Of a stretch of 32,935 bases of DNA, positions 3,514-30,185 are shown in pieces (the stretch's first letter is position 1; each line of letters opens with the position of its first letter). The stretch spans positions 1 to 32,935 of the forward strand of contig JALSLX010000148.1 in the NCBI GenBank assembly GCA_026988095.1, written 5' to 3'. The position numbers and the translations under genes are program-made. This stretch comes from Thiotrichaceae bacterium (GTDB lineage Bacteria > Pseudomonadota > Gammaproteobacteria > Thiotrichales > Thiotrichaceae). Below the pieces are notes generated by a model, which ran no database searches, was not told the DNA's origin, and was given only the letters and a program-made list of their open reading frames with translations.

Positions 3514-4275
3514 CTAAAAACTATAAAGTGTTAACTCAAAAGTTACATTTTCAACAATCTGCTTACCCCGCTCCTCTAAGTCCATGGCATCTACAAAGCG
3601 AACTGAAAAACGTTGTTTACCTGCACTTATTTCAGGATAAACATTAGAATTATTTGGCAACTCTATGGAGAGTACTTGATAGTCTCTATCTGGACTCAAA
3701 CTTGATTGATAAAAACCACCTTCTGCAACAACTTCTTGTTTTTCTCCACCTTGGTAAATTAATTCCATTAGTAGTTCAATAGCCTCAAAAGCGATTCTAT
3801 AAGGTTTTGCCCAGCCTTGCAGATCCTCAACCCGTTTATCACTAGTTTTATTTAACCAATGATTAAATAAAGGCACATCTAAACTATTTATTCCTCCAGC
3901 AATAGAAGCACGTTGACGGAGTATATTTAAAAAATGGTGAGTTTTTAGGTGTTGACCAAGTTGTCCGCGAGAACTGTACAGCTGTTTACTTTTTTCTTCT
4001 AACTTTGCCAAAATGCGCGTTGCTCTCATTTCATCTACACCCTGCACACCTTTTGCTTGGCGAACAGCTTGTGTTTGAAAGTCCAGTACGTGTAACGCAG
4101 CATTTTTAACATCAAGCCGTGACGATAAATTATAAAGCTCTAAGAGGATTACAACTGCTGCTTGACAATTTTCAGGGCTTGGATCTTCAAGATGATAGTT
4201 GAAACGCTTCATCAAATAACTTAACCGCATAAAAAGACGGATTTTTTCATTCAATGGGTGCTCAAATACTGCCAT
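3514..4275 (-). CDS. zapD: Cell division protein ZapD
   Basis: FEHPLNEKIRLFMRLSYLMKRF and RQRASIAGGINSLDVPLFNHWL are ZapD (DUF1342) signatures; adjacent to coaE as usual. Confidence 0.92.
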   Translation of the reverse strand: MAVFEHPLNEKIRLFMRLSYLMKRFNYHLEDPSPENCQAAVVILLELYNLSSRLDVKNAALHVLDFQTQAVRQAKGVQGVDEMRATRILAKLEEKSKQLYSSRGQLGQHLKTHHFLNILRQRASIAGGINSLDVPLFNHWLNKTSDKRVEDLQGWAKPYRIAFEAIELLMELIYQGGEKQEVVAEGGFYQSSLSPDRDYQVLSIELPNNSNVYPEISAGKQRFSVRFVDAMDLEERGKQIVENVTFELTLYSF

Positions 4276-5490: not shown

Positions 5491-6312
5491 ACCTATCTAT
5501 CTACAGCGCTCTATGCGATTTTAAAACCCTTGATTGGCTTAATGTATCGAAATGGCATGGCCTTTGGAGAGTTTTCTAAATTAGCAAAGTTAGCATACAT
5601 TGAGGTAATAGAAAAAGAACTTATTAAATCAAAACAAAAAGCAACCACTTCGCAAATTGCAATTAGTTCAGGTCTAACGCGTAAAGAGATTAGCGCATTT
5701 AGAAAAGAATCTACGCCTCTTCATGATAAGAAAGTAAATCAAAATAGAGCTACACGTGTAATCAGTGCTTGGATTAGTGACCCATTATTTTGTGATGAAA
5801 ATAACAAAGCAAAGATTCTTGATGCTCAAGGGGCAGATGGAACTTTTGAGCACTTGGTCAATCTGTATAGTGGTGATATGCCTTTTAGAGCAATGATGAA
5901 AGAGCTACTTCGCACCGGCGCCATTGAAGAAATAGATGGGAACAAGGTAGCACTTATTCGTGCGGCATATATTCCCTCTAATGATGAAAATGGAATGTAT
6001 GATTTACTGGGTGAAGACGTTTCTCTTCTTATATCAACAATAAAACACAATATTATTAACGAAAATAATAAACCCAGATATCAACGCAAAGTTAGCTACG
6101 ACAAGATTAATGTAAAAAATCTAGATGAATTTAGAGAATTGGTCGCCAAAGAAAATCAAATACTTCTCGTTAAACTCAATAAATGGCTTGCCCAACACGA
6201 CATGAATAAGCAAACAACGAAAAAAAATGAAAAATCAATGAAAGTTGGCGTGGGCATCTATTATTTTGAGACTGAAAGCGAAAAATTAAAAGGTACAAAT
6301 GATGAAAACTAG
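5485..6312 (+). CDS. DUF6502 family protein, HTH-like N-terminal region
   Basis: ATG at 5485 gives MNTYLSTALYAILKPLIGLMYRNGMAFGEFSKLAKLAYIEVIEKEL...ATTSQIAISSGLTRKEISAFRKE; preferred to the TTG start at 5464. Confidence 0.7.
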   Translation: MNTYLSTALYAILKPLIGLMYRNGMAFGEFSKLAKLAYIEVIEKELIKSKQKATTSQIAISSGLTRKEISAFRKESTPLHDKKVNQNRATRVISAWISDPLFCDENNKAKILDAQGADGTFEHLVNLYSGDMPFRAMMKELLRTGAIEEIDGNKVALIRAAYIPSNDENGMYDLLGEDVSLLISTIKHNIINENNKPRYQRKVSYDKINVKNLDEFRELVAKENQILLVKLNKWLAQHDMNKQTTKKNEKSMKVGVGIYYFETESEKLKGTNDEN

Positions 6313-7330
6313 TTTTAAAAGCATCACGGCAATCGTATTAAGTTTTGCTTTAAGTGCCTGTGGTGGCGGAGTATCCGTTGCCAGCAATGATGGAATAACT
6401 GGAACAGGTATCACGACCGCAGGAAGGGTAACGGGTTTTGGTAGCATTTGGGTCAATGGAATAAAGTTTAACGTAGATGAAGCAACCTTCAGCCGAGATG
6501 GAATCACATCATCTGGTCAAAGTGAATTTAGCATTGGAGAATATGTTGTTATTAAAGGTTTAGTTGATAAAACCACCCAATTAGGAATTGCCGAAGATGT
6601 TTCTTTTATAGACCTTATCGATGGCACTGTAACAACTGCTAGTACAGATAATTCAACAATAGAAATCCTAGGACAACTCGTTAAAACTGACACCAATACA
6701 ACACTCATTGATGATAGAGGTGGCTCTACAAACACCTTCGCAAATCTTACAGACTTAGTCATTGGGAATATTATCGAAGTATCAGGAATCAGGGATAGCA
6801 CTGGTTTGATTAGAGCAACTAGTATCAAACTCAAAGAAAGTATTGGCTCTAAAAATGAACTTAAAGGAACAATCAGCAATATAGACACGTCCACTAAAAC
6901 CTTCATGATTGAAAGTATTCTAATTGATTATGGCAATGCAAAATTAGAAGGCTTTAATACCGAGCCAAAGAATGGTCAGTTTGTAGAAGTTAACAGCTCT
7001 ACAGAATATGACGGGCACATATTAATAGCCAAAAAAGTTGAATTAGAAGATGAGTTCATGACTACAGTAAAAGGAACAGAACTTGAAGTAGAGGGTATTG
7101 TGACACGCTTTATTTCAATCTTAGACTTTGAAATTAACGGCATACCAGTCAGGACAACGACTAATACTAAATATAAAGACGGTATATCTACTGATATTAA
7201 ATTAAATACACAATTAGAGATTAATGGGGTTGTGGACAACAACGGTATATTAGTTGCTGAAAAAATTGAGCTTAAAAAAGACGATGACGACGATGATGAC
7301 GACGACGACGATGACGACGATGACGATTAA
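6299..7330 (+). CDS. DUF5666-type lipoprotein with C-terminal poly-aspartate tail
   Basis: Lipobox LSACGGG; repeated OB-like segments (GTVTTASTDNSTIEILGQLV, ELKGTISNIDTSTKTFMIES, EVEGIVTRFISILDFEINGIPV); ends KKD16. Overlaps the DUF6502 stop. Confidence 0.7.
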   Translation: MMKTSFKSITAIVLSFALSACGGGVSVASNDGITGTGITTAGRVTGFGSIWVNGIKFNVDEATFSRDGITSSGQSEFSIGEYVVIKGLVDKTTQLGIAEDVSFIDLIDGTVTTASTDNSTIEILGQLVKTDTNTTLIDDRGGSTNTFANLTDLVIGNIIEVSGIRDSTGLIRATSIKLKESIGSKNELKGTISNIDTSTKTFMIESILIDYGNAKLEGFNTEPKNGQFVEVNSSTEYDGHILIAKKVELEDEFMTTVKGTELEVEGIVTRFISILDFEINGIPVRTTTNTKYKDGISTDIKLNTQLEINGVVDNNGILVAEKIELKKDDDDDDDDDDDDDDDD

Positions 7331-7397
7331 AAAAGGTGACTCGGTACTGTAACACCGAGTCGATAAACTACTTACCGCAAGGTAAGCAACTTAGCAA

Positions 7398-8519
7398 GTG
7401 GAGTATAACATGAAAACTAAATATACCATTCCAGTAATGGTTTCTACGGCGGTCTTACTCGCCGCCTGTGGCGGAGGAAGCGATACTACTTCCACACCCA
7501 CAAAATCCAGTTTCAATTTAACAGGTACTGTTCCTGGTACTTTGATTGAAGCCTTCTGTGAAGACGGTTCTTATTACTCTGTAAATTCAGATAATAATGG
7601 AACTACTCAACACCCCTTTTCACTAAAAATACCGGTAGACCTATCTTGTCGCTTAGTGATGACAACTAATGAGGATGATATTGCAAAAAAAGTAGTTACT
7701 CCTATCAAGTTCACTAACAAAGATGGAGTGACCAGCATCGCCTTTATAGGCACCGAAGATACAGACTTAGGCTATGTTGACCTTGCCCTAAACAGGGATA
7801 ACATGACTTTAGATATTGAAGGTGATGGCGTAGAAGATGACCCCAAAGAGGTTTATATTGATGATTTTTCAATTGAAATAGTCGACAAAGCGGACAACGA
7901 CCCTTTAGATAAAAATAACGATGACATCATCGACATCTATGAAGATGATGACAATGACGGCATCAATAATCACGACGATGATGATGATGACAATGATGGT
8001 GTTAAAGATAAAGATGATAGGGACTTCGATAACGATCACGATGGTGATGGTATTGATGACCGAGATGACATCGATGATGACAACGATGGCTTAGAAGATA
8101 GACATGACGATGATGATGACAACGATGGCATTAAAGACAACGTCGACAATGATGATCGTGATGATGACGATAGATACGACGACGATGACGACCGAGATGA
8201 TGATGATGATCGATACGATGACGACGACGATAGATATGATAATGGAAACGGAAGCATCAACCCAACAGTCGTTACAACACCCTCTGCAGGAAGATTATTA
8301 GCATCGCAATGCGCCCAATGTCACCGCACTGATGCAAACCCAAATAAAGGCTTCGAAGATTTACTTGGAGAAGAAATTTATGGTGAACTTAATGAAATGA
8401 AAAGAGAAAATAAATGGGAGCTTATGCACTTTCAAGCAAAAGGATATTCTGATGCTCAAATACGTTTAATGGATGAATACTTCAACACCCTTTCAAGCAA
8501 TAATAATGGAGATGATTAA
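7398..8519 (+). CDS. Lipoprotein c-type cytochrome with Asp-rich, TSP3-like calcium-binding region; probable cytochrome partner of the downstream FccB-like protein
   Basis: Lipobox LLAACGGG; many DxDxDG-type repeats (DDDNDGINNHDDDDDDNDG); C-terminal CAQCH heme motif and LMHFQAKGYSDAQIRLMDEYF. Confidence 0.75.
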   Translation: MEYNMKTKYTIPVMVSTAVLLAACGGGSDTTSTPTKSSFNLTGTVPGTLIEAFCEDGSYYSVNSDNNGTTQHPFSLKIPVDLSCRLVMTTNEDDIAKKVVTPIKFTNKDGVTSIAFIGTEDTDLGYVDLALNRDNMTLDIEGDGVEDDPKEVYIDDFSIEIVDKADNDPLDKNNDDIIDIYEDDDNDGINNHDDDDDDNDGVKDKDDRDFDNDHDGDGIDDRDDIDDDNDGLEDRHDDDDDNDGIKDNVDNDDRDDDDRYDDDDDRDDDDDRYDDDDDRYDNGNGSINPTVVTTPSAGRLLASQCAQCHRTDANPNKGFEDLLGEEIYGELNEMKRENKWELMHFQAKGYSDAQIRLMDEYFNTLSSNNNGDD

Positions 8520-9850: not shown

Positions 9851-10015
9851 ACCTGAATCAGTGACTTCACTACGGCACAGTACGCAAGCTATTGATTCAT
9901 CACGAGTTTAAAAAAATACCCGCTTAACCTATGGGTGAAGCTAAGATTTTTTAAATTCTCGTGCTAAACCAATATCTTACGCCCTGTTATCCGCATTGAA
10001 GTCACGGATTCAGGT
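9851..10015. repeat. 165-bp imperfect fold-back (palindromic) element
   Basis: ACCTGAATCAGTGACTTCA (9851-9869) pairs with TGAAGTCACGGATTCAGGT (9997-10015) with 1 mismatch; the interior continues to pair, e.g. CACGAGTTTAAAAAAAT with ATTTTTTAAATTCTCGTG. Confidence 0.75.
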
Positions 10016-10021
10016 AACAAT

Positions 10022-10053
10022 AAAAAAGAGCCACTTTATGTGGCTCTTTTTTA
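10022..10053. terminator. Bidirectional-type terminator hairpin
   Basis: AAAAAAGAGCCAC-TTTAT-GTGGCTCTTTTTT downstream of minus-strand folE2. Confidence 0.9.
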
Positions 10054-10094
10054 TTGTTAGTTTTTATTTCTAAATGGTTATTTATAAACAATCA

Positions 10095-11159: not shown

Positions 11160-11233
11160 CTTTTTCGATATTTTGTACGCTAATATTTAGTACAAATCAT
11201 CGAAAAAGGGGAGGGGTGGTCTATAAAAACACC
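11160..11233 (+). repeat. G-rich dispersed repeat, copy A (with inverted partner arm)
   Basis: CTTTTTCGATATTTTGTAC (11160-11178) pairs with GTACAAATCATCGAAAAAG (11190-11208), followed by GGGAGGGGTGGTCTATAAAAACACC. Confidence 0.7.
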
Positions 11234-11235
11234 TA

Positions 11236-11841
11236 TTAAAACTCTAAAGACCGTAGTTCAGCTGTTTCTAAATGCTTTAAGTCACGCTGGCATGATGCTG
11301 GGAGTTTGTTAAAGGCAGTTAGAAGCACTTGCAAGGTATCACCATGCGCTACAAGCAAGAAAGTTTGATCATCATAATAGCTTTCAAGTGACCAAACAAA
11401 TGCGCTTACACGTTGCATTACCGCATCGGCACTTTCAACATTATTACTGGTGTGAGAACTATCTAAAGCATCCTTGTCCCAAACAGTTTGATAATGTTCA
11501 TTACTCAATAATTCAAAGCTACCAAAGTCACGTTCACGTAATCTTGGCTCTGGCTCTATCAAGTATTCGGTACCCAATATTTCCCCAGCAATAACAGCAG
11601 ATTCGTAAGCACGTTTGAAGTCAGAACTAACAATGCGTGTTTTTGACCCCAGTAATTCATCAGCTTTTGCTTTCTTAATGGTTGTTTCGATTTGGGCGCG
11701 CCCCTCATCGCTTAAACCGTATTTATCTAAACCATTTTCTGGGGTACTAACAATGATGCCTTCTATATTTGCAAGGCTTTCACCATGGCGTAATATAAAA
11801 TATTTGTTATTTAATTCTGTAATGTCTATTAGCTGATTCAT
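11236..11841 (-). CDS. Histidine phosphatase family protein (phosphoglycerate mutase-like)
   Basis: YFILRHGESLANIEGII RHG motif; SSDFKRAYESAVIAGEIL; FLLVAHGDTLQVLL. Confidence 0.9.
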   Translation of the reverse strand: MNQLIDITELNNKYFILRHGESLANIEGIIVSTPENGLDKYGLSDEGRAQIETTIKKAKADELLGSKTRIVSSDFKRAYESAVIAGEILGTEYLIEPEPRLRERDFGSFELLSNEHYQTVWDKDALDSSHTSNNVESADAVMQRVSAFVWSLESYYDDQTFLLVAHGDTLQVLLTAFNKLPASCQRDLKHLETAELRSLEF

Positions 11842-13416: not shown

Positions 13417-14763
13417 ATGAAAATCTGGATAAAAAACCCACTATCAATATTAATAGATAACGACACAGATGCCCGTGGCGGCATTGTAATATCTAATAAC
13501 AAAATTACCGAAATACTGGCTTTAGGCGAAGTACCTTCTGAGCAAGTAGATCAAACCTTTGATGCCTCTGAGCACGTTGTCTTACCTGGCCTCATCAACA
13601 CGCATCATCATTTCTACCAGACACTGACACGTGCTTTTCCCGATGCGTTAAATAAAGAATTATTCCCGTGGCTCAAAAGCCTTTACCCTGTTTGGGCGGG
13701 CTTAACTGAAGATTTAATTCACGTTTCTACGCGCTTAGCATCGGTTGAGTTATTGCTGTCGGGCTGTACTACGGCGGCAGATCATCACTATATTTTCCCC
13801 GAGGCTGCTCGTGAGGCCTTAGATGTTCAAGTTGATGCGATTCAATCCGTCGGCATACGCGCAACACTCACCCGTGGTTCGATGAGCTTAGGTGAAGATA
13901 ATGGCGGACTGCCACCGCGCAACACGATTCAAACCGAAGACGCAATCTTGGCAGATTGTGATCGCGTGATTAATGAATATCACGATGCCAGCGAAGGTTC
14001 GATGATGCAGGTAGCGCTTGCGCCCTGCTCCCCTTTTAGTGTTACCGAAGATTTAATGAAAGAGAGTGCCATACTAGCGCGCGAAAAAAATGTACGTCTA
14101 CACACACATCTAGCAGAAACCTTTGACGAGAATGATTTCTGCATCAAAGTATTTGGCGTTCGCCCTGTCGATTATTTAGAGCGTGTCGGCTGGATGGCTG
14201 ACGATGTATGGCTGGCTCACGGTATCCATTTTAATGATGACGAAATTATTCGATTAGGTAAAGCAGGTGTAGGCGTAACCCACTGCCCTAGCTCCAATAT
14301 GGTTTTAGGTTCGGGGCAATGTAAAACCTTAGATTTAGAGAAAGCGGGTAGCCCTGTCGGTTTAGGTGTCGATGGTTCAGCATCGAGTGATTGCTCCAAC
14401 TTAATTCAAGAAACTCGCCAAGCCATGTTATTACAACGCTTACGTTATGGCTCAGCAGGCATTACGCATTTTGATGCTTTTCGTTGGGTAACAAAAGGCT
14501 CTGCACGATGTTTAGGGCGTGATGATATTGGAGAGATTGCCCTAGGCAAACAGGCAGATTTAGCCTTATTTAAACTTGATGAGATTCGCTTTTCTGGTTC
14601 TGGTGATCCCTTAGCGGCATTATTATTATGTGGCGCACACAAAGCAGACCATGTGATGGTTGCTGGTGAGTGGAAAGTTAAAAATGGTGAAGCGGTTGAT
14701 GTAGACATAGATGAATTAATGGCAGAACACCAAAAAGCAGCGAAAATATTGGCACAAACATGA
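13417..14763 (+). CDS. 8-oxoguanine deaminase / amidohydrolase (ATZ/TRZ family)
   Basis: GLINTHHHFYQTLTRAFPDALNKELFPWL, CTTAADHHYIFP, RLHTHLAETFDE, HCPSSNMVLGSG; located at a urate degradation locus. Confidence 0.85.
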   Translation: MKIWIKNPLSILIDNDTDARGGIVISNNKITEILALGEVPSEQVDQTFDASEHVVLPGLINTHHHFYQTLTRAFPDALNKELFPWLKSLYPVWAGLTEDLIHVSTRLASVELLLSGCTTAADHHYIFPEAAREALDVQVDAIQSVGIRATLTRGSMSLGEDNGGLPPRNTIQTEDAILADCDRVINEYHDASEGSMMQVALAPCSPFSVTEDLMKESAILAREKNVRLHTHLAETFDENDFCIKVFGVRPVDYLERVGWMADDVWLAHGIHFNDDEIIRLGKAGVGVTHCPSSNMVLGSGQCKTLDLEKAGSPVGLGVDGSASSDCSNLIQETRQAMLLQRLRYGSAGITHFDAFRWVTKGSARCLGRDDIGEIALGKQADLALFKLDEIRFSGSGDPLAALLLCGAHKADHVMVAGEWKVKNGEAVDVDIDELMAEHQKAAKILAQT

Positions 14764-15344
14764 CAAATAAAATACAAATCATCGAAAAAGAGGGGGGGTG
14801 GCCTATAAAAAACCTCTCAAAACTCAATAAATATAGTAAAAAAGAGGCTTTTGAAGCCTTTATGCAATGCAACACCAGTGAAAAATGGTGTGGAAGCATG
14901 GTTGATCGTCGTCCTTTCGCTGATTATCAATCTGTTCTCGATAATGCAGACAAATATTGGGCTGAATCTAAAGAAAAAGATTTGTTACAAGCTTTTGAAG
15001 GACACCCCGAAATTGGTGATGTATCAACGCTACGTGAAAAGTACCGCAATACTGCAAAATCAGCAGGGCATGAACAATCTGGCGTAAACACAGCATCCGA
15101 AAATACACTACAATCATTAGCGCAAGGCAATAGAGAATATAAAGACAAGTTTGGTTTTATCTTTATTGTTTGTGCCAGTGGAAAAAGTGCGGATGAGATG
15201 TTGGCTTTATTGTTAGCACGTTTGCCTAATTCACGTGAGCAGGAGTTGATAAATGCAAGCGAGGAACAACGTAAGATTACGCATTTACGATTGGATAAAC
15301 TCTTGGATTTCTCCCCCCTCCCTAACCCTCCCCCCGCTGGGTAG
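14760..15344 (+). CDS. uraD: OHCU decarboxylase, with repeat-derived N- and C-terminal extensions
   Basis: SKLNKYSKKEAFEAFMQCNTSEKWCGSMVDRRPF...GHPEIGDVSTL...ANK-like LLARLPNSREQELINASEEQRKITHLRLDKLL; ATGA overlap with the upstream gene. Confidence 0.9.
   Translation: MTNKIQIIEKEGGWPIKNLSKLNKYSKKEAFEAFMQCNTSEKWCGSMVDRRPFADYQSVLDNADKYWAESKEKDLLQAFEGHPEIGDVSTLREKYRNTAKSAGHEQSGVNTASENTLQSLAQGNREYKDKFGFIFIVCASGKSADEMLALLLARLPNSREQELINASEEQRKITHLRLDKLLDFSPLPNPPPAG
14763..14816 (+). repeat. G-rich dispersed repeat, copy B (within uraD 5' coding region)
   Basis: ACAAATAAAATACAAATCATCGAAAAAGAGGGGGGGTGGCCTATAAAAAACCTC. Confidence 0.8.
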
Positions 15345-15355
15345 AGGGGACTGGT
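15305..15355 (+). repeat. Left inverted arm of the DUF559 cassette
   Basis: GGATTTCTCCCCCCTCCCTAACCCTCCCCCCGCTGGGTAGAGGGGACTGGT. Confidence 0.95.
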
Positions 15356-15362
15356 CGTTTCT

Positions 15363-15743
15363 ATGAAAGATAAGGCTAGAGCTTTACGCAAGAACCAGAC
15401 AGATGCTGAGTTAGCGATTTGGCAGTTGCTTCGCGCAAAGAGAGTGAAAGGTTTAAAGTTTCGCAGGCAACATCCAATTCCACCGTATATCGTGGATTTT
15501 ATTTGCGCTGAGAGAAAACTAATTATTGAAGCAGACGGCGGACAACATACTGACGCTGTTAAATACGACCAAAAAAGAACAGCGTTTTTAGAGTCAAAAG
15601 GCTATACCGTCATACGATTCTGGAATAACGAAATCCTAACAAATATCGAAGATGTGTACGAAAACATCATCAAACATATAGAAAAACCAGTCCCCTCTAC
15701 CCAGCGGGGGAGGGCTAGGGAGGGGGGAGAAATCCCAATCTAG
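15363..15743 (+). CDS. DUF559 (PF04480) endonuclease-fold protein
   Basis: MKDKARALRKNQTDAELAIWQLLRAKRVKGLKFRRQHPIPPYIVDFICAERKLIIEADGGQHTDAVKYDQKRTAFLESKGYTVIRFWNNEILTNIEDVYENI is the diagnostic DUF559 pattern. Confidence 0.95.
   Translation: MKDKARALRKNQTDAELAIWQLLRAKRVKGLKFRRQHPIPPYIVDFICAERKLIIEADGGQHTDAVKYDQKRTAFLESKGYTVIRFWNNEILTNIEDVYENIIKHIEKPVPSTQRGRAREGGEIPI
15686..15735 (-). repeat. Right inverted arm of the DUF559 cassette
   Basis: ACCAGTCCCCTCTACCCAGCGGGGGAGGGCTAGGGAGGGGGGAGAAATCC. Confidence 0.95.
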
Positions 15744-18188: not shown

Positions 18189-18250
18189 CTACGTCCCCTC
18201 TCCCTTCCCTCAAAGTTATCCGATAGATGAGAAAATTTAATGTTATTTAT

Positions 18251-18285
18251 TTGGCCACCCCCCCTCTTTTTCGCTGTTTTGTATT
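18251..18285 (-). repeat. G-rich dispersed repeat, copy C
   Basis: Reverse complement AATACAAAACAGCGAAAAAGAGGGGGGGTGGCCAA, between puuE and alc. Confidence 0.8.
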
Positions 18286-22729: not shown

Positions 22730-23245
22730 ATGGAATCATTACAATTACAAGACATTCATTTACCCGAAAGCGCCAGTATTTGGCCGCTTGCCATTGGCTG
22801 GTGGATTTTACTTTTTCTCATTTTATTCGGTTCTTCTTGGTTGATTATTAAAGCAATCAAACGCGCGAAACAAAGAAAGCATCGACGAATGATTCTCTCA
22901 AAGTTTGAGGTATTAGAAACCAAACTTAAAACAAACCCCAGCAATGCCACTATCGCAGAAATAAACACTTTACTTCGTCAACTGGCAATCACTTATTATC
23001 CTCGAATAGAAATTGCCAGCCTTACAGGTAGTGATTGGCTACAGTTTTTAGATAAATCGGGTGATACTCATGAGTTTAGCCGTGGCGCTGGGCGTATTTT
23101 GATTGAAGCTCCCTATCAACTAGAAAAACAATTAGATAAACAAACAAACAAGCAGTCTGAACATAAAATTGAAAACTTGAATATTAATGAATTTACTCCT
23201 CTTATTAAAAACTGGGTTAAAAAAGTACTCAGGAGTAACCGATGA
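22730..23245 (+). CDS. DUF4381 domain membrane protein
   Basis: LQLQDIHLPESASIWPLAIGWWILLFLI, LLRQLAITYYPR...SLTGSDWLQFLDK; operon context. Confidence 0.88.
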   Translation: MESLQLQDIHLPESASIWPLAIGWWILLFLILFGSSWLIIKAIKRAKQRKHRRMILSKFEVLETKLKTNPSNATIAEINTLLRQLAITYYPRIEIASLTGSDWLQFLDKSGDTHEFSRGAGRILIEAPYQLEKQLDKQTNKQSEHKIENLNINEFTPLIKNWVKKVLRSNR

Positions 23246-24357
23246 TAGCCATGATCAATATGTTCTTTGATGTATTTTCATTTGCATCATTAACGCAATC
23301 AACATCGCTTGAATTTACTTTCGTCTGGGCATTCCTACTATTGCCTCTACCTTTTCTTGTTCGTTTATTACTCCCTGTAGCGCCAGAGAGTAACAAAGCG
23401 GCCTTACGCGTTCCCTTTTTTAGAGACATACAAACAGGCTTTACAAAAAACAAAAATACACGCTCATTATTGAGGCTAATTTTAGCGCTAATTGTTTGGG
23501 TATTATTAGTCACGGCAGCTGCGCGTCCACAATTTATCGGCGACACCATCACGCAACCTGTTACTGGCAGAAGCCTCATGATGGCGGTGGATATATCAGG
23601 CTCCATGCAAGCCGCTGATATGATAATTTCAGGTCGTCCTGTTACACGCTTAACCGCCGTTAAAGCTGTTGCCTCTGACTTTATAAGCAAACGTAAAGGC
23701 GATCGAATTGGACTTATCCTTTTTGGCACACAAGCCTATCTACAAGCACCGCTTACCTTTGACCGTAAAACAGTAAATATCTTATTAAAAGAATCAGCAC
23801 TAGGCTTAGCTGGACGTGAGACCGCAATTGGAGATGCCATAGGTTTAGCCGTAAAACGCCTACGCAAAGAGGATGAGAAAAACCGTGTACTCATACTACT
23901 CACCGATGGAGCAAATACAGCCGGCAATGTAGAACCTTTAAAAGCCGCCGATCTTGCGGCACAAGAAAAAGTGAGAATTTATACCATCGGTATTGGAGCA
24001 GATGCACGAATCATTCAAACCCCTTTTGGTAGGCAGCGAGTAGGCGGGGTAGATTTGGATGAGCCAACGCTTCAAGCTATTGCTGATAAAACAAAGGGGC
24101 GCTATTTTAGAGCGCATAATGTTAAGAGTTTATTGGAGATTTACGCAATACTCGATAAAGTAGAACCTGTTTCAGAAGATGAATTAAGCTATCGCCCTGT
24201 TAAAGAACTTTATTATTATCCGCTGGCACTTGCCTTGTTACTAAGCGCGTTAATCGCATTATTTAGTGTTGCTACCAACCTTTTTACCCCTTCCAACAAG
24301 GGAGAGAAACACAAAAATAAAATACAAAACGTCGAAAAAGAGGGGGGGTGGTCTTAA
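23242..24357 (+). CDS. BatA-like VWA domain protein; C-terminus runs into the dispersed repeat
   Basis: MMAVDISGSMQAADM MIDAS; LLTDGANTAGN; C-terminal GEKHKNKIQNVEKEGGWS is repeat-derived. Confidence 0.92.
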   Translation: MIAMINMFFDVFSFASLTQSTSLEFTFVWAFLLLPLPFLVRLLLPVAPESNKAALRVPFFRDIQTGFTKNKNTRSLLRLILALIVWVLLVTAAARPQFIGDTITQPVTGRSLMMAVDISGSMQAADMIISGRPVTRLTAVKAVASDFISKRKGDRIGLILFGTQAYLQAPLTFDRKTVNILLKESALGLAGRETAIGDAIGLAVKRLRKEDEKNRVLILLTDGANTAGNVEPLKAADLAAQEKVRIYTIGIGADARIIQTPFGRQRVGGVDLDEPTLQAIADKTKGRYFRAHNVKSLLEIYAILDKVEPVSEDELSYRPVKELYYYPLALALLLSALIALFSVATNLFTPSNKGEKHKNKIQNVEKEGGWS

Positions 24358-24360
24358 AAA
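24311..24360 (+). repeat. G-rich dispersed repeat, copy D (spans the BatA stop / BatB-like start)
   Basis: ACAAAAATAAAATACAAAACGTCGAAAAAGAGGGGGGGTGGTCTTAAAAA. Confidence 0.8.
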
Positions 24361-26324
24361 TGGATCAATTACACTTCCTACAGCCACTTTGGTTGCTTGC
24401 TTTAATCCCTTTAGCCATATTGTGGTGGCTTATTGTGCGCACAAAAACAGGCAACTCAAAAGCATGGGAGAAAGTCATCGACCCCAAGCTTTTACCGCTA
24501 TTACTACAAGGCTCTAACGAAAAGCATAGCTACTCAGAATCTATAGCCAAGTGGTTATTAGCATTTGCTTGGCTACTGGCAACCATTGCACTTGCCGACC
24601 CAGTGTGGGAGAAAATACCTCGCCCTGTCTTTCAAACAAACTCTGCACGTGTGATTGTTTTAGACCTATCAAACTCTATGCAGATTGATGACTTGAAGCC
24701 TTCTCGTCTAGCGCGGGCGCGTTTCAAAATTGAGGATATTTTATCTAATAATTTTGCTAAAAATGAAGAAGGGCAAATAGGTCTGGTATTATTTGCGGGC
24801 GATGCTTTTACCGCATCTCCCCTCACCCGTGATTCAGAAACAATCCGTGCCTTACTGCAAGTACTCACCCCTGATCTTATGCCATCACAAGGTAGCCGTG
24901 TGGATTTAGGCTTAATAAAAGCGCATGAATTACTCACCCAAGCGGGTATTACAAAGGGGCAAGTATTACTTATTTCAGATGGTGTCGAAGACCAAGGTGC
25001 TGCATTAAAGGCGGCGCAAAAATTAAAAGCTGATGGACACACCCTTTCTGTCTTAGCCGTAGGCACAGAGCTTGGTGGAAAATTACCCCAACTCAAATAT
25101 AGAAATGGCGACAGTATTACCGTAGCCCTTGATTCTGAATTCCTCCAAGAAATTGCATCAAATGGTGGCGGTAAATTTCACCTCATTAGCACAACAGATT
25201 CTGACTTAAAAGCCGTACTTACCGCATCAACTGCCACTGATATTGCTAAACCTGAAGATAAAGCAAAAACCAACGATGACCTAAATTCTGAAGAGTGGAA
25301 ATCATCAGGCCCCTTCATCATTTTACTGCTACTACCCTTAGCGGCTTTAGCATTTAGACGTGGTTGGTTATTTAATGTCTTGATTGTAGGCACTCTTATC
25401 AGTGTCATGCATCCACAGCCCGTACTTGCCTCTCCGATGACTGAGTCACTAAGTAGCACATGGCGTAATCTTTGGATTAACAAAGAACAACAAGCCGAAA
25501 AAGCATTAGAAGAACAGCAATACGATAAAGCAAGTTCGCTTTCGAAAAAACCCTCACTTCGTGGTAGTGCTTATTATAAAAATAAGAATTATGAAAAAGC
25601 ATTAGAAGAATTTAAACAAGCGAAAGGGGCTGATGCCCGTTATAACGAAGGCAATTCCTTAGCAAAGTTACAGAAATACCAAGAAGCAATAAAGGCTTAT
25701 GAGGAAGCACTCAAACTACAAACCAATATGGAAGATGCAAAAAAGAATAAGGCTGCTATGGAAGCGTTATTAAAAAAGAAACAAGAACAAGCATCAGGTG
25801 ATTCCAAAAAAGATAAACAAAAGTCTGATGATAAAAACAAAGATGGTAAGACAGGCAAGCAAGGAGATAAAACAGAAAAAAAGGAGGGTGAAAAAGGAGA
25901 ACAGGGTAAAGATGAAAACAACAAAAGTGGTAAAGACGATGACAAAAACCAGTTTTCTGAAGCCAATAAAAACCTAGATAAGCAAAAAGACGAGGATCAA
26001 CCAAAAGACCCATCTGCGGCAAAAAAGAAAGACGAAAAAGATAAAAAAGAAAACAAAAGCTCCCAAGAAAATGAGAGCAACGATAAACAATCGGAAAATG
26101 AATCAAAAAATAGCGAAGCAAAAAATAACGCTACTGAGGATGAAAAAATAAAAGAAAAAGGAACTAAAGCAAACGCAAAAGAACTAAGTAAAGAAGAAAA
26201 AATGGCGGCAGAGCAATGGTTGCGTCGAATCCCAGATGACCCTGGTGGATTATTACGCCGTAAGTTTGAAGCACAATACAAACAACGCAGACGCTCAATT
26301 AACGAGACAAAACAACCTTGGTAA
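24360..26324 (+). CDS. VWA plus TPR protein (BatB/BatC-like fusion) with Lys/Glu/Asp-rich linker
   Basis: VIVLDLSNSMQIDDLKPSRL; LLISDGVEDQG; TPR ARYNEGNSLAKLQKYQEAIKAYEEAL; low-complexity linker. ATG 24360 or GTG 24348. Confidence 0.9.
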   Translation: MDQLHFLQPLWLLALIPLAILWWLIVRTKTGNSKAWEKVIDPKLLPLLLQGSNEKHSYSESIAKWLLAFAWLLATIALADPVWEKIPRPVFQTNSARVIVLDLSNSMQIDDLKPSRLARARFKIEDILSNNFAKNEEGQIGLVLFAGDAFTASPLTRDSETIRALLQVLTPDLMPSQGSRVDLGLIKAHELLTQAGITKGQVLLISDGVEDQGAALKAAQKLKADGHTLSVLAVGTELGGKLPQLKYRNGDSITVALDSEFLQEIASNGGGKFHLISTTDSDLKAVLTASTATDIAKPEDKAKTNDDLNSEEWKSSGPFIILLLLPLAALAFRRGWLFNVLIVGTLISVMHPQPVLASPMTESLSSTWRNLWINKEQQAEKALEEQQYDKASSLSKKPSLRGSAYYKNKNYEKALEEFKQAKGADARYNEGNSLAKLQKYQEAIKAYEEALKLQTNMEDAKKNKAAMEALLKKKQEQASGDSKKDKQKSDDKNKDGKTGKQGDKTEKKEGEKGEQGKDENNKSGKDDDKNQFSEANKNLDKQKDEDQPKDPSAAKKKDEKDKKENKSSQENESNDKQSENESKNSEAKNNATEDEKIKEKGTKANAKELSKEEKMAAEQWLRRIPDDPGGLLRRKFEAQYKQRRRSINETKQPW

Positions 26325-28263: not shown

Positions 28264-29301
28264 ATGGGCGCAACCGCTAAAGTAATATCCATGTACAAAC
28301 CATCTACTTGGAAAGAAAAAGGATTAAAATGGACAATCACTATGTTCTTTTTTACCTTTGTTTTTCTCATGCTCCTTTTGATGTTTTTTTGGAGTAACGA
28401 GCCAGACCGCTTTGATGTAAATACCAATGCACAGACTGTAGCAGAAGAGATGGGTGTGAAAGTTGTCAATGGCTTTACCACCACGGCAACCTTATCTCGA
28501 TTGGTAGAAACCTTGCTCGATAAATCAGGCGGATTTCTTGAAAATGATAGAATGCCTCCCGGTGTTTTAATGGACAATATGCCAAACTGGGAGTTTGGCG
28601 TACTGGTTCAATCACGTGATATGGCACTGGCTTTACGTAATGATTTAAGCCGCTCTCAATCACAATCTGTCGAAGATAAAGATTTGGTTAACACGGCAAC
28701 AAAGTTTCATACCGATACAAACTTATGGATATTGCCACCTGCCGAAAGCCAATATCGTAACGGCGTAAAATCCCTAAATAGTTATCTAAAACGACTCGCT
28801 AGTCCTAGTGCATCAAATGCACAATTTTATTCTCGTGCTGACAATCTTGTGGATTGGTTAGGCTTAGTGAAAAGACGTTTAGGTTCACTCTCTCAACGCT
28901 TAAGCGCTAGTGTAGGTAAAGAGCAACTCAACACCGACCTTGCTGGTGATGCAGAAGCTAAGCAATCTACACCTAACGCAGCATCAAATTATATAAAAAC
29001 CAGTTGGTATGAAATTGATGATGTTTTTTACGAAGCACGTGGACAAACTTGGGCATTAATTCATCTCTTAAGAGCTGTCGAAAAAGACTTTGGCTCAGTG
29101 CTTGAGAAGAAAAATGCGCTCATCAGCTTGCGCCAAATTATTCGTGAGCTAGAAGGCACACAACAAGCCATGTGGAGCCCAATTATTCTTAATGGAAAAG
29201 GTTTTGGCTTTGTGACTAACCACTCTTTGGTTATGGCATCTTACATATCTCGTGCTAATGCCGCTTTAATTGACCTTGAACGCCTATTACAACAAGGCTA
29301 A
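28264..29301 (+). CDS. DUF2333 family protein
   Basis: N-terminal TM segment, FSWSNEPD-like FFWSNEPDRFDV, TTATLSRLVETLLDKSGGFLENDRMPPGVLMDNMPNWEFGVLVQSRD. Confidence 0.85.
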   Translation: MGATAKVISMYKPSTWKEKGLKWTITMFFFTFVFLMLLLMFFWSNEPDRFDVNTNAQTVAEEMGVKVVNGFTTTATLSRLVETLLDKSGGFLENDRMPPGVLMDNMPNWEFGVLVQSRDMALALRNDLSRSQSQSVEDKDLVNTATKFHTDTNLWILPPAESQYRNGVKSLNSYLKRLASPSASNAQFYSRADNLVDWLGLVKRRLGSLSQRLSASVGKEQLNTDLAGDAEAKQSTPNAASNYIKTSWYEIDDVFYEARGQTWALIHLLRAVEKDFGSVLEKKNALISLRQIIRELEGTQQAMWSPIILNGKGFGFVTNHSLVMASYISRANAALIDLERLLQQG

Positions 29302-29323: not shown

Positions 29324-29406
29324 ATACAAATCAACGAAAAAGAGGGGGGGTGGGTATAAAAACCTGATTTTCATGCCCACCCCCCCTCTTTTTCGTTGAT
29401 TTGTAT
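29324..29406. repeat. G-rich dispersed repeat, copy E: perfect 31-bp inverted pair with 21-nt loop
   Basis: ATACAAATCAACGAAAAAGAGGGGGGGTGGG (29324-29354) and CCCACCCCCCCTCTTTTTCGTTGATTTGTAT (29376-29406). Confidence 0.95.
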
Positions 29407-29417
29407 TGCTTTTCTAT

Positions 29418-30185
29418 ATGGAAAACGTATTCGAACTCAATAATTACTGGTTAATCGCCCTGACACTTGTTGCATTTTCAGCAGGTTATATTGATGCCGT
29501 CGCGGGCGGCGGCGGAATGTTAAACCTCCCTGCTTTATTGTTTGCTGGCGTACCTCCTGTTTCTGCATTAGCAGTCAATAAAATGACAGGCATCGCTGGC
29601 ACTACCCTTGCAGTGATCAAATATGCACTTGAACAACGCATACATTGGCGCACCGTTTTCTATGCAACTATACCTTGTTTGCTTGCCTCCTATATTGGCG
29701 GAAAAATGGCGCTCAATGCATCTGCTACTGTTCTCGCTTGGGCTATTTTAATTTGTATTCCTATCGCTCTTTTTATCGTATTGAACGATAAAGCATCACA
29801 AAATAAAAGCCAAACTGAAGTGAGTGCGTCCAAAACTATTCTTGCCATTACACCTTTAGGCTTTTATGACGGTATTTTAGGCCCTGGCACTGGAACCTAT
29901 ATGGCGATTGCCGTTAGACGTTTTTTAAAATTTGATTTATTAGCCGCCACTGCCACTATTAAACCTCTAAATCTACTGACCAATATCGGGGCAGGAGTCG
30001 CCTTTTTAATTGCTGGTAAGGTCGTTTGGTCAATCGCTATACCTATGCTAGTAGCAAGTTCTGCTGGCGGATGGCTGGGAAGTCACTCTGCCATAAAAGG
30101 CGGTGACAAATTTATTCGTCGTGTTTTAGTATCTGTATTAGTACTAATGTTACTAGCCAATGCTTATAAGATGTTGTTTTCATAG
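29418..30185 (+). CDS. TSUP (TauE/SafE) family transporter
   Basis: AGYIDAVAGGGGMLNLPALLFAGVPPVSALAVNKMTG; GFYDGILGPGTGTYMAI. ATG 29418 preferred over TTG 29406. Confidence 0.93.
   Translation: MENVFELNNYWLIALTLVAFSAGYIDAVAGGGGMLNLPALLFAGVPPVSALAVNKMTGIAGTTLAVIKYALEQRIHWRTVFYATIPCLLASYIGGKMALNASATVLAWAILICIPIALFIVLNDKASQNKSQTEVSASKTILAITPLGFYDGILGPGTGTYMAIAVRRFLKFDLLAATATIKPLNLLTNIGAGVAFLIAGKVVWSIAIPMLVASSAGGWLGSHSAIKGGDKFIRRVLVSVLVLMLLANAYKMLFS

Follow-up and report, generated by a model that had tools for sequence, protein, structure and literature searches.

A perfect intergenic hairpin in a Thiotrichaceae genome is a pair of sites from a genus-wide repeat with features of a DNA uptake signal

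Main

The gap that separates a DUF2333 gene from a TauE/SafE (TSUP) permease gene in a Thiotrichaceae bacterium holds a perfect inverted repeat with long, G-rich arms, and the question that this locus raises is whether such a hairpin is an RNA structure, a mobile element or something else. The original prediction considered it the possible full-length form of a MITE-like element, with decayed and half forms nearby. Here we follow the repeat from the 32,935-nt stretch of DNA that contains it (the window) through the rest of this MAG (G000; an incomplete 2.26-Mb assembly of 167 contigs), the other genomes of its genus and genomes of other genera.

Results and discussion

The hairpin is exactly as first described, a 31-bp perfect inverted repeat in the gap between the DUF2333 gene (28264-29301, forward strand; PF10095, E = 6.5 × 10−150) and the TSUP gene (29418-30185, forward strand; PF01925, E = 1.3 × 10−38). 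Its left arm (ATACAAATCAACGAAAAAGAGGGGGGGTGGG; 29324-29354, G-rich strand on the forward strand) and its right arm (29376-29406, G-rich strand on the reverse strand) are exact reverse complements, separated by a 21-nt loop (29355-29375) whose outer part imperfectly continues the stem (GTATAAAAA / TTTTCATGC), and the two arms match a 19-bp core without mismatches (29335-29353 and 29377-29395). As stated, the structure sits just upstream of TSUP: the right arm ends 11 bp before the likely start, the ATG at 29418, with no evident Shine-Dalgarno sequence between them. The very stable RNA hairpin that was foreseen is borne out by a predicted fold of −64.9 kcal/mol (z = −12.95; 0 of 200 shuffles equalled it). 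Either strand reads A5, a G7TGG/CCAC7 stem and T5, so that in sequence and fold a GC-rich stem is followed by a T tract, and the pair (29324-29406) looks like a candidate bidirectional terminator with a long loop. A terminator consensus scan for loops of 3-8 nt did not list it, because the 21-nt loop is long, and the window held no Rfam match. If the pair does terminate transcription, TSUP expression would require read-through. Elsewhere in the window, a perfect 20-bp inverted repeat with a 5-nt loop and a T run (10015-10059) has the look of an ordinary bidirectional terminator.

Each arm is one copy of a dispersed G-rich element, as had been proposed. Allowing up to three mismatches, the 19-bp core CGAAAAAGAGGGGGGGTGG has 362 matches in G000 (178 and 184 on the two strands; 0 for the reversed control), that is, ~360 copies genome-wide, and six in the window (0 in 100 shuffles), where units occupy five places (11.2, 14.8, 18.3, 24.3 and 29.3 kb). 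Apart from the hairpin, these are single units: one on the forward strand at 24321-24361 (core 24333-24351), which supplies the last codons of a VWA-domain gene (23242-24357) by overlapping its 3' end; an intergenic unit on the reverse strand at 18245-18285 (core 18255-18273); one on the forward strand just past an amidohydrolase gene at 14771-14810 (core 14783-14801); and a diverged intergenic unit on the forward strand at 11189-11228 (core 11201-11219, 2 mismatches). The stop of the VWA-domain gene is followed 2 bp later by the start of a VWA/TPR gene. A weight matrix applied to 842 kb of G000 found 230 sites with ~40 bits of total information, the lowest-scoring of which may be chance matches, and 125 of these sites sit in pairs less than 90 bp apart. 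Conservation extends from approximately −12 to +18 relative to the core, interrupted by four variable bases (−4 to −1) between ACAAA and CGAAAAA. The repeat unit is a single 31-bp site; it is not palindromic, and single units have no stable RNA fold. The repeat is also shared by a contig 99.5-99.8% identical to G000. Many units lie at contig ends, and in an alignment one contig stops inside a palindrome formed by two head-to-head units, so assembly probably breaks there.

The window holds other features of interest. A C-rich inverted repeat (15303-15355 / 15686-15738; TCTCCCCCCTCCCTAACCCTCCCCC, 97% over 30 bp) flanks a 126-amino-acid open reading frame, and because similar sequence occurs in other G000 gaps (L083 ~3900-4170 and L229 ~6200-6580) it represents a second, different dispersed repeat. 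At 7253-8245, two adjoining open reading frames, the second lacking a Pfam match, carry long Asp-rich GATGAC repeats, and their products are acidic and perhaps calcium binding.

Close pairs of units in G000 are nearly always inverted, in both possible arrangements, with same-orientation pairs rare; head-to-head pairs (TACAAA ends facing) are ~3.5 times commoner than tail-to-tail pairs, the form in the window (45 versus 13). Start-to-start spacings of head-to-head pairs (40-41, 48-52, 59-62, 72-73, 93, 124-125 and 135 bp) fit a 10.5-bp helical grid (R = 0.77, P ~ 4 × 10−14), as do those above 66 bp alone (R = 0.77, P = 0.003 at 10.5 bp), these P values being approximate because neighbouring pairs are not wholly independent events. 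Spacings of 14 tail-to-tail pairs (42-45, 55 and 105 bp; 42 bp in the window) gave R = 0.82, and pair spacings in G008, a second species (37-38 and 48 bp), gave R = 0.97. The perfect arms in the window had been contrasted with diverged copies elsewhere, and comparison of arm divergence within and between copies upheld this in part: variable-base identity was 0.78 within pairs and 0.65 for shuffled partners (P = 0.0005), but perfect arms are not exceptional, since 17 of the 58 pairs analysed in G000 are identical over a 28-bp core. The greater likeness within pairs fits either local palindrome homogenisation or selection for pairing.

The placement of units along the chromosome is also non-random. 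With pairs merged and internal sites alone counted, the spacing of sites in G000 had a coefficient of variation (CV) of 0.468, whereas random intergenic placement gave 0.83 ± 0.09 (none of 2,000 simulations was as even), and gaps shorter than 2.5 kb made up 2%, versus 25% at random. This evenness is not an artefact of contig ends, as it holds with internal sites on long contigs alone. Two further species (G002 and G003) were nominally more even than random (P ~ 0.03); evenness was not seen in G007, G008 or G010. Convergent gaps are favoured (26 of 83 sites versus 13% of intergenic base pairs) and divergent gaps avoided (4 of 83 versus 31%). As judged by GC skew, the G strand is more often on the leading strand (291:194, P = 1 × 10−5), and the G003 dialect is unequally distributed on long contigs (191 forward, 488 reverse), which suggests replication polarity.

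Could the repeat act only at the RNA level, as terminators or hairpins? The fold of the window pair, with its A5-stem-T5 layout, and the position of tail-to-tail pairs between convergent genes (5 of the 9 placed) are what such a role would lead one to expect. However, singles form no stable hairpin, the commoner head-to-head pairs have no T tract after the stem, and a 10.5-bp grid and chromosomal evenness are meaningless for RNA. Nor is the window pair a unique, locus-specific terminator, the finding named in advance as fatal to the dispersed-element idea, because paired copies exist elsewhere, as had been claimed. Terminators as the whole explanation are largely excluded, and we regard this account as very improbable.

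The repeat extends across the genus. In nine of its 12 genomes the repeat is present in about 100 to 1,000 copies, mostly as recognisably different dialects built on a common plan (an A-tract, 4-5 variable bases, an A-tract, two bases, G6-7 and TG). The G002 dialect is AAAAATATATAAAAAACAGGGGGGATGGGTA, with a close relative in G010; G003 and G008 share AAAAAnngCCtaAAAGTAGGGGGGTG; G011 has TCAAAAAGTGGGGGGGTGTCATTTT; and G007 has GAGAAAAnnncAAAAAGKKGGGGGGTGTACTTTTTA. Across the seven species sampled, the matrix gave a density of ~250-460 sites per Mb. Allowing one mismatch, AAGTAGGGGGGTG had 254-1071 matches in six genomes (G003, G004, G007, G008, G009 and G011) and 0-6, as for a control pattern, in 54 genomes of other genera; copies were few or none in three genomes of the same genus (G001, G005 and G006). 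These counts and spellings indicate a family that is genus-wide, patchy and species-specific in spelling. Sites turn over between species within conserved gene gaps, some gaps having units in 2-3 species and others in one, although automatic counts for these gaps miss some diverged copies that can be seen there. The G000 dialect also appeared on contigs from the same samples binned as Cyclobacteriaceae, Thiomicrorhabdus, Sulfurimonas, Micavibrio and Hyphomicrobiales (L089-L093 and L097-L100); two of these match Thiotrichaceae DNA, so mis-binning is likely. Carriage by phages was considered and rejected, as viral contigs had no exact match. No description of the repeat in Thiotrichaceae was found in the open literature searched.

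The window hairpin could instead be one composite form of a transposase-dependent mobile repeat (REP/BIME-like or MITE-like) with hundreds of sites. Copies are indeed intergenic and in the hundreds, conserved gene gaps differ between species in presence or absence, Y1_Tnp genes occur in 7 of the 12 genus genomes, and the orientation bias with respect to replication (291:194) is of the kind known for single-strand transposition. Against this, direct repeats at the edges of the unit showed no excess, leaving no signal of target-site duplication; variants at −4 to −1 and +7/+8 combine freely and the core has no linkage to its flanks, hence there are no clonal subfamilies (haplotypes) of the sort that serial copying leaves; and the even spacing of sites in G000 and the helical grid on which pairs fall also count against mobility. 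Y1_Tnp is absent from five genomes (G003, G004, G007, G009 and G011) despite hundreds of copies and present in the three where copies are few or none (G001, G005 and G006), and G000 has only fragments of a Y1 transposase, so a RAYT as mover was rejected. REP sequences resemble the repeat in being short, abundant, intergenic and paired in opposite orientations, but they are palindromes headed by GTAG-type tetranucleotides (PMC8266576), whereas the unit is not palindromic and lacks a GTAG/GGAG-headed hairpin. The predicted full-length MITE with decayed and half forms also fits poorly with two opposite pair arrangements whose spacings, ranging from 40 bp to 135 bp or more, follow the 10.5-bp grid. 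Given the missing duplications, the free variants and the mismatch with Y1 genes, a MITE or REP origin is unlikely, and we consider mobility of this kind improbable overall; an extinct mover is possible.

Candidate empty sites were also sought. At the window locus no clean one was available, since DUF2333 orthologues (71-81% identity) in readable relatives have no TSUP neighbour. At strain level, the genome to which a 95%-identical contig (L087) belongs had just 8 matches, and the single shared locus bears the same pair; the element was unchanged in a 99.5%-identical record (L094/L095). Separately, an element of ~150-180 bp with terminal inverted repeats (AATCAAGTCCAATTATTTTTAGCTTGCC ... GACTTAATCAG) occupies intergenic gaps of G000 and its sister species (for example, L060 ~13520-13690, L083 ~1230-1420 and L175 ~11380-11540), and it is a better MITE candidate than the window hairpin. 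In several G007 copies and one G000 copy, a REP-like hairpin (GGAGCnnAGCGACGACnnCCCG..GGGTG; for example, L173 ~6250 and L175 ~18260 in G007, and L063 ~17950) stands immediately before the unit, whose variable bases pair with it (for example, TGCGTTTATAAAACGCA).

The flanks of the unit provide further evidence. Around isolated copies in G000, flanks that are mutually unrelated show an A/T excess that recurs every 10.5 bp in register with the core, with a phasing power at +20 to +67 of 0.384, compared with 0.003 at intergenic A5-6 tracts elsewhere in the genome; as these controls are ~100-fold weaker, the phasing is not an artefact of general A-tract periodicity. It is also present in coding flanks, where the copies used were purged of partner units less strictly and may include some that went undetected. 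Under strict isolation (within 160 bp no second unit and no G4/C4 run), phasing persisted at −44 to −14 and +21 to +160 in G000 (n = 16-17) and at +21 to +160 in G007 (n = 25-29), the downstream signal having P values of 0.0002-0.004, so it does not come wholly from undetected partner units. Upstream phasing beyond −45 in G000 was gone under strict isolation, which indicates that the earlier symmetric profile was partly due to partner units; what survives lies mainly on the G-run (3') side. In G011 only the first tract is phased, phasing is weak in G003 and G008, and it is absent in G002 and G010.

Such flanks raise the possibility of a chromosome-architecture site, in which the unit and its phased flanks would wrap a protein (DNA gyrase or a nucleosome-like nucleoid protein) and form regular topological landmarks at gene ends. 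Tracts phase-locked around unrelated copies and into coding flanks, the helical grid of pairs, even spacing in G000, enrichment between convergent and depletion between divergent genes, and replication polarity would all suit this role. Yet gyrase is strongly conserved, which makes species dialects of a 40-bit core unexpected for a gyrase site; the wings of strictly isolated copies are mainly one-sided and extend past the 130-bp gyrase footprint; and the repeat occurs without phasing in G002 and G010 and is scarce or missing in G001, G005 and G006. The Escherichia coli gyrase motif has a 36-bp centre and 47-bp wings with 10.75-bp GC periodicity, and the enzyme also has sites in BIME-2 repeats (PMC6379681); other gyrases also have 10-11-bp periodicity (PMC12324340). 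Our unit and flanks share with these sites a central ~30-36 bp, flanks with a 10.5-10.75-bp period, and intergenic positions at gene ends (PMC6379681), so that period and core size agree. Wing symmetry, in contrast, does not agree in strict singles, and the gyrase motif is degenerate and symmetric, whereas the repeat core is near-invariant and species-specific with mainly one-sided wings. On balance, we hold an architectural site to be unlikely, if less so than a mobile repeat.

The known kind of element that fits best is, tentatively, a DNA uptake signal, and by this comparison the unit may plausibly be a chromosome-wide recognition sequence acting like the USS of Pasteurellaceae or the DUS of Neisseriaceae. 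USS and DUS are spaced more regularly than random, form close, oppositely oriented pairs, prefer non-coding DNA and have a strong consensus that differs by subclade, with AT segments spaced by single helical turns on the 3' side of the core (PMC1626085; see also PMC12616744); DUS dialects and dyad-symmetric DUS pairs have been described (PMC3630211). The repeat matches this list in copy number, dialects, consensus, non-coding preference, spacing, pairs and 3' AT tracts, which is why we favour this reading. Its near-identical copies are over-represented across the clade, at ~100-1,000 per carrier, its variants combine independently of one another, as they should if each site evolves one base at a time, and helically spaced AT tracts 3' of the core are found in G000, G007 and G011 (first tract), not in G002 and G010. 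Like the Hin and Apl types of USS, it has hundreds of strong-consensus copies with a subclade-specific consensus, regular spacing, opposite close pairs, a non-coding preference and helical AT tracts 3' of the core (PMC1626085); like the DUS, it has one dialect per species or clade, a common inner skeleton and dyad-symmetric pairs (PMC3630211).

The differences are also clear. USS and DUS show no orientation bias (PMC1626085), whereas the repeat has a leading-strand bias (291:194, and 191:488 in G003), a departure in a secondary rather than an essential feature. Many coding-sequence copies would be expected of an uptake signal, and here they are few (4 of 119; 3 of 55 among strong single copies). 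The core, unrelated to that of the USS, is 31 bp with a G6-7 run and occurs once per 3-7 kb, compared with 9-12 bp and approximately one per kb for USS/DUS; and neither phasing over 10 or more helical turns nor a helical grid of pair spacings is described for USS. The DUS, in turn, is 10-12 bp without flanking tracts and has ComP as its receptor, unlike a 31-bp unit with phased flanks. ComEC genes were detected in 11 of the 12 genus genomes, as were DprA genes, with DprA not found in the incomplete G000; because both genes are widespread in bacteria, this evidence is weak and permissive only.

If the unit is an uptake signal, the conserved core and the A/T tracts that follow it in helical phase on the 3' (G-run) side would together form the signal. 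A receptor on the cell surface, part of the type IV pilus/competence machinery, would recognise this signal in double-stranded form, with the unit perhaps bent or kinked for entry. Biased uptake and recombination would build and keep copies at fairly regular intervals and, in making them, would let species drift to their own dialects. Close inverted pairs, the window copy included, may be a by-product or an enhanced form of the signal, and some tail-to-tail pairs may double as intrinsic terminators. It is possible, though more doubtful than uptake as such, that this Thiotrichaceae repeat is a third, independently evolved self-DNA uptake family that has six or more species dialects, a recognition platform of many phased A/T helical turns, and DNA curvature or wrapping as part of the signal. 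Whatever probability is not taken up by uptake, architecture, mobility or termination lies with something else.

Conclusions

Whatever the mechanism, the hundreds of evenly spaced sites, their phase-locked flanks and the pair grid suggest that this genus has a protein-DNA system acting on the whole genome, and they carry a caution: perfect intergenic hairpins can be two DNA-level sites and not an RNA element. As of a 2006 review, uptake signals were known only from Pasteurellaceae and Neisseriaceae (PMC1626085). If our preferred reading is true, a third uptake-signal family, present in environmental sulfur oxidisers and divided into dialects of its own, would provide an independent comparison for the evolution of uptake signals.
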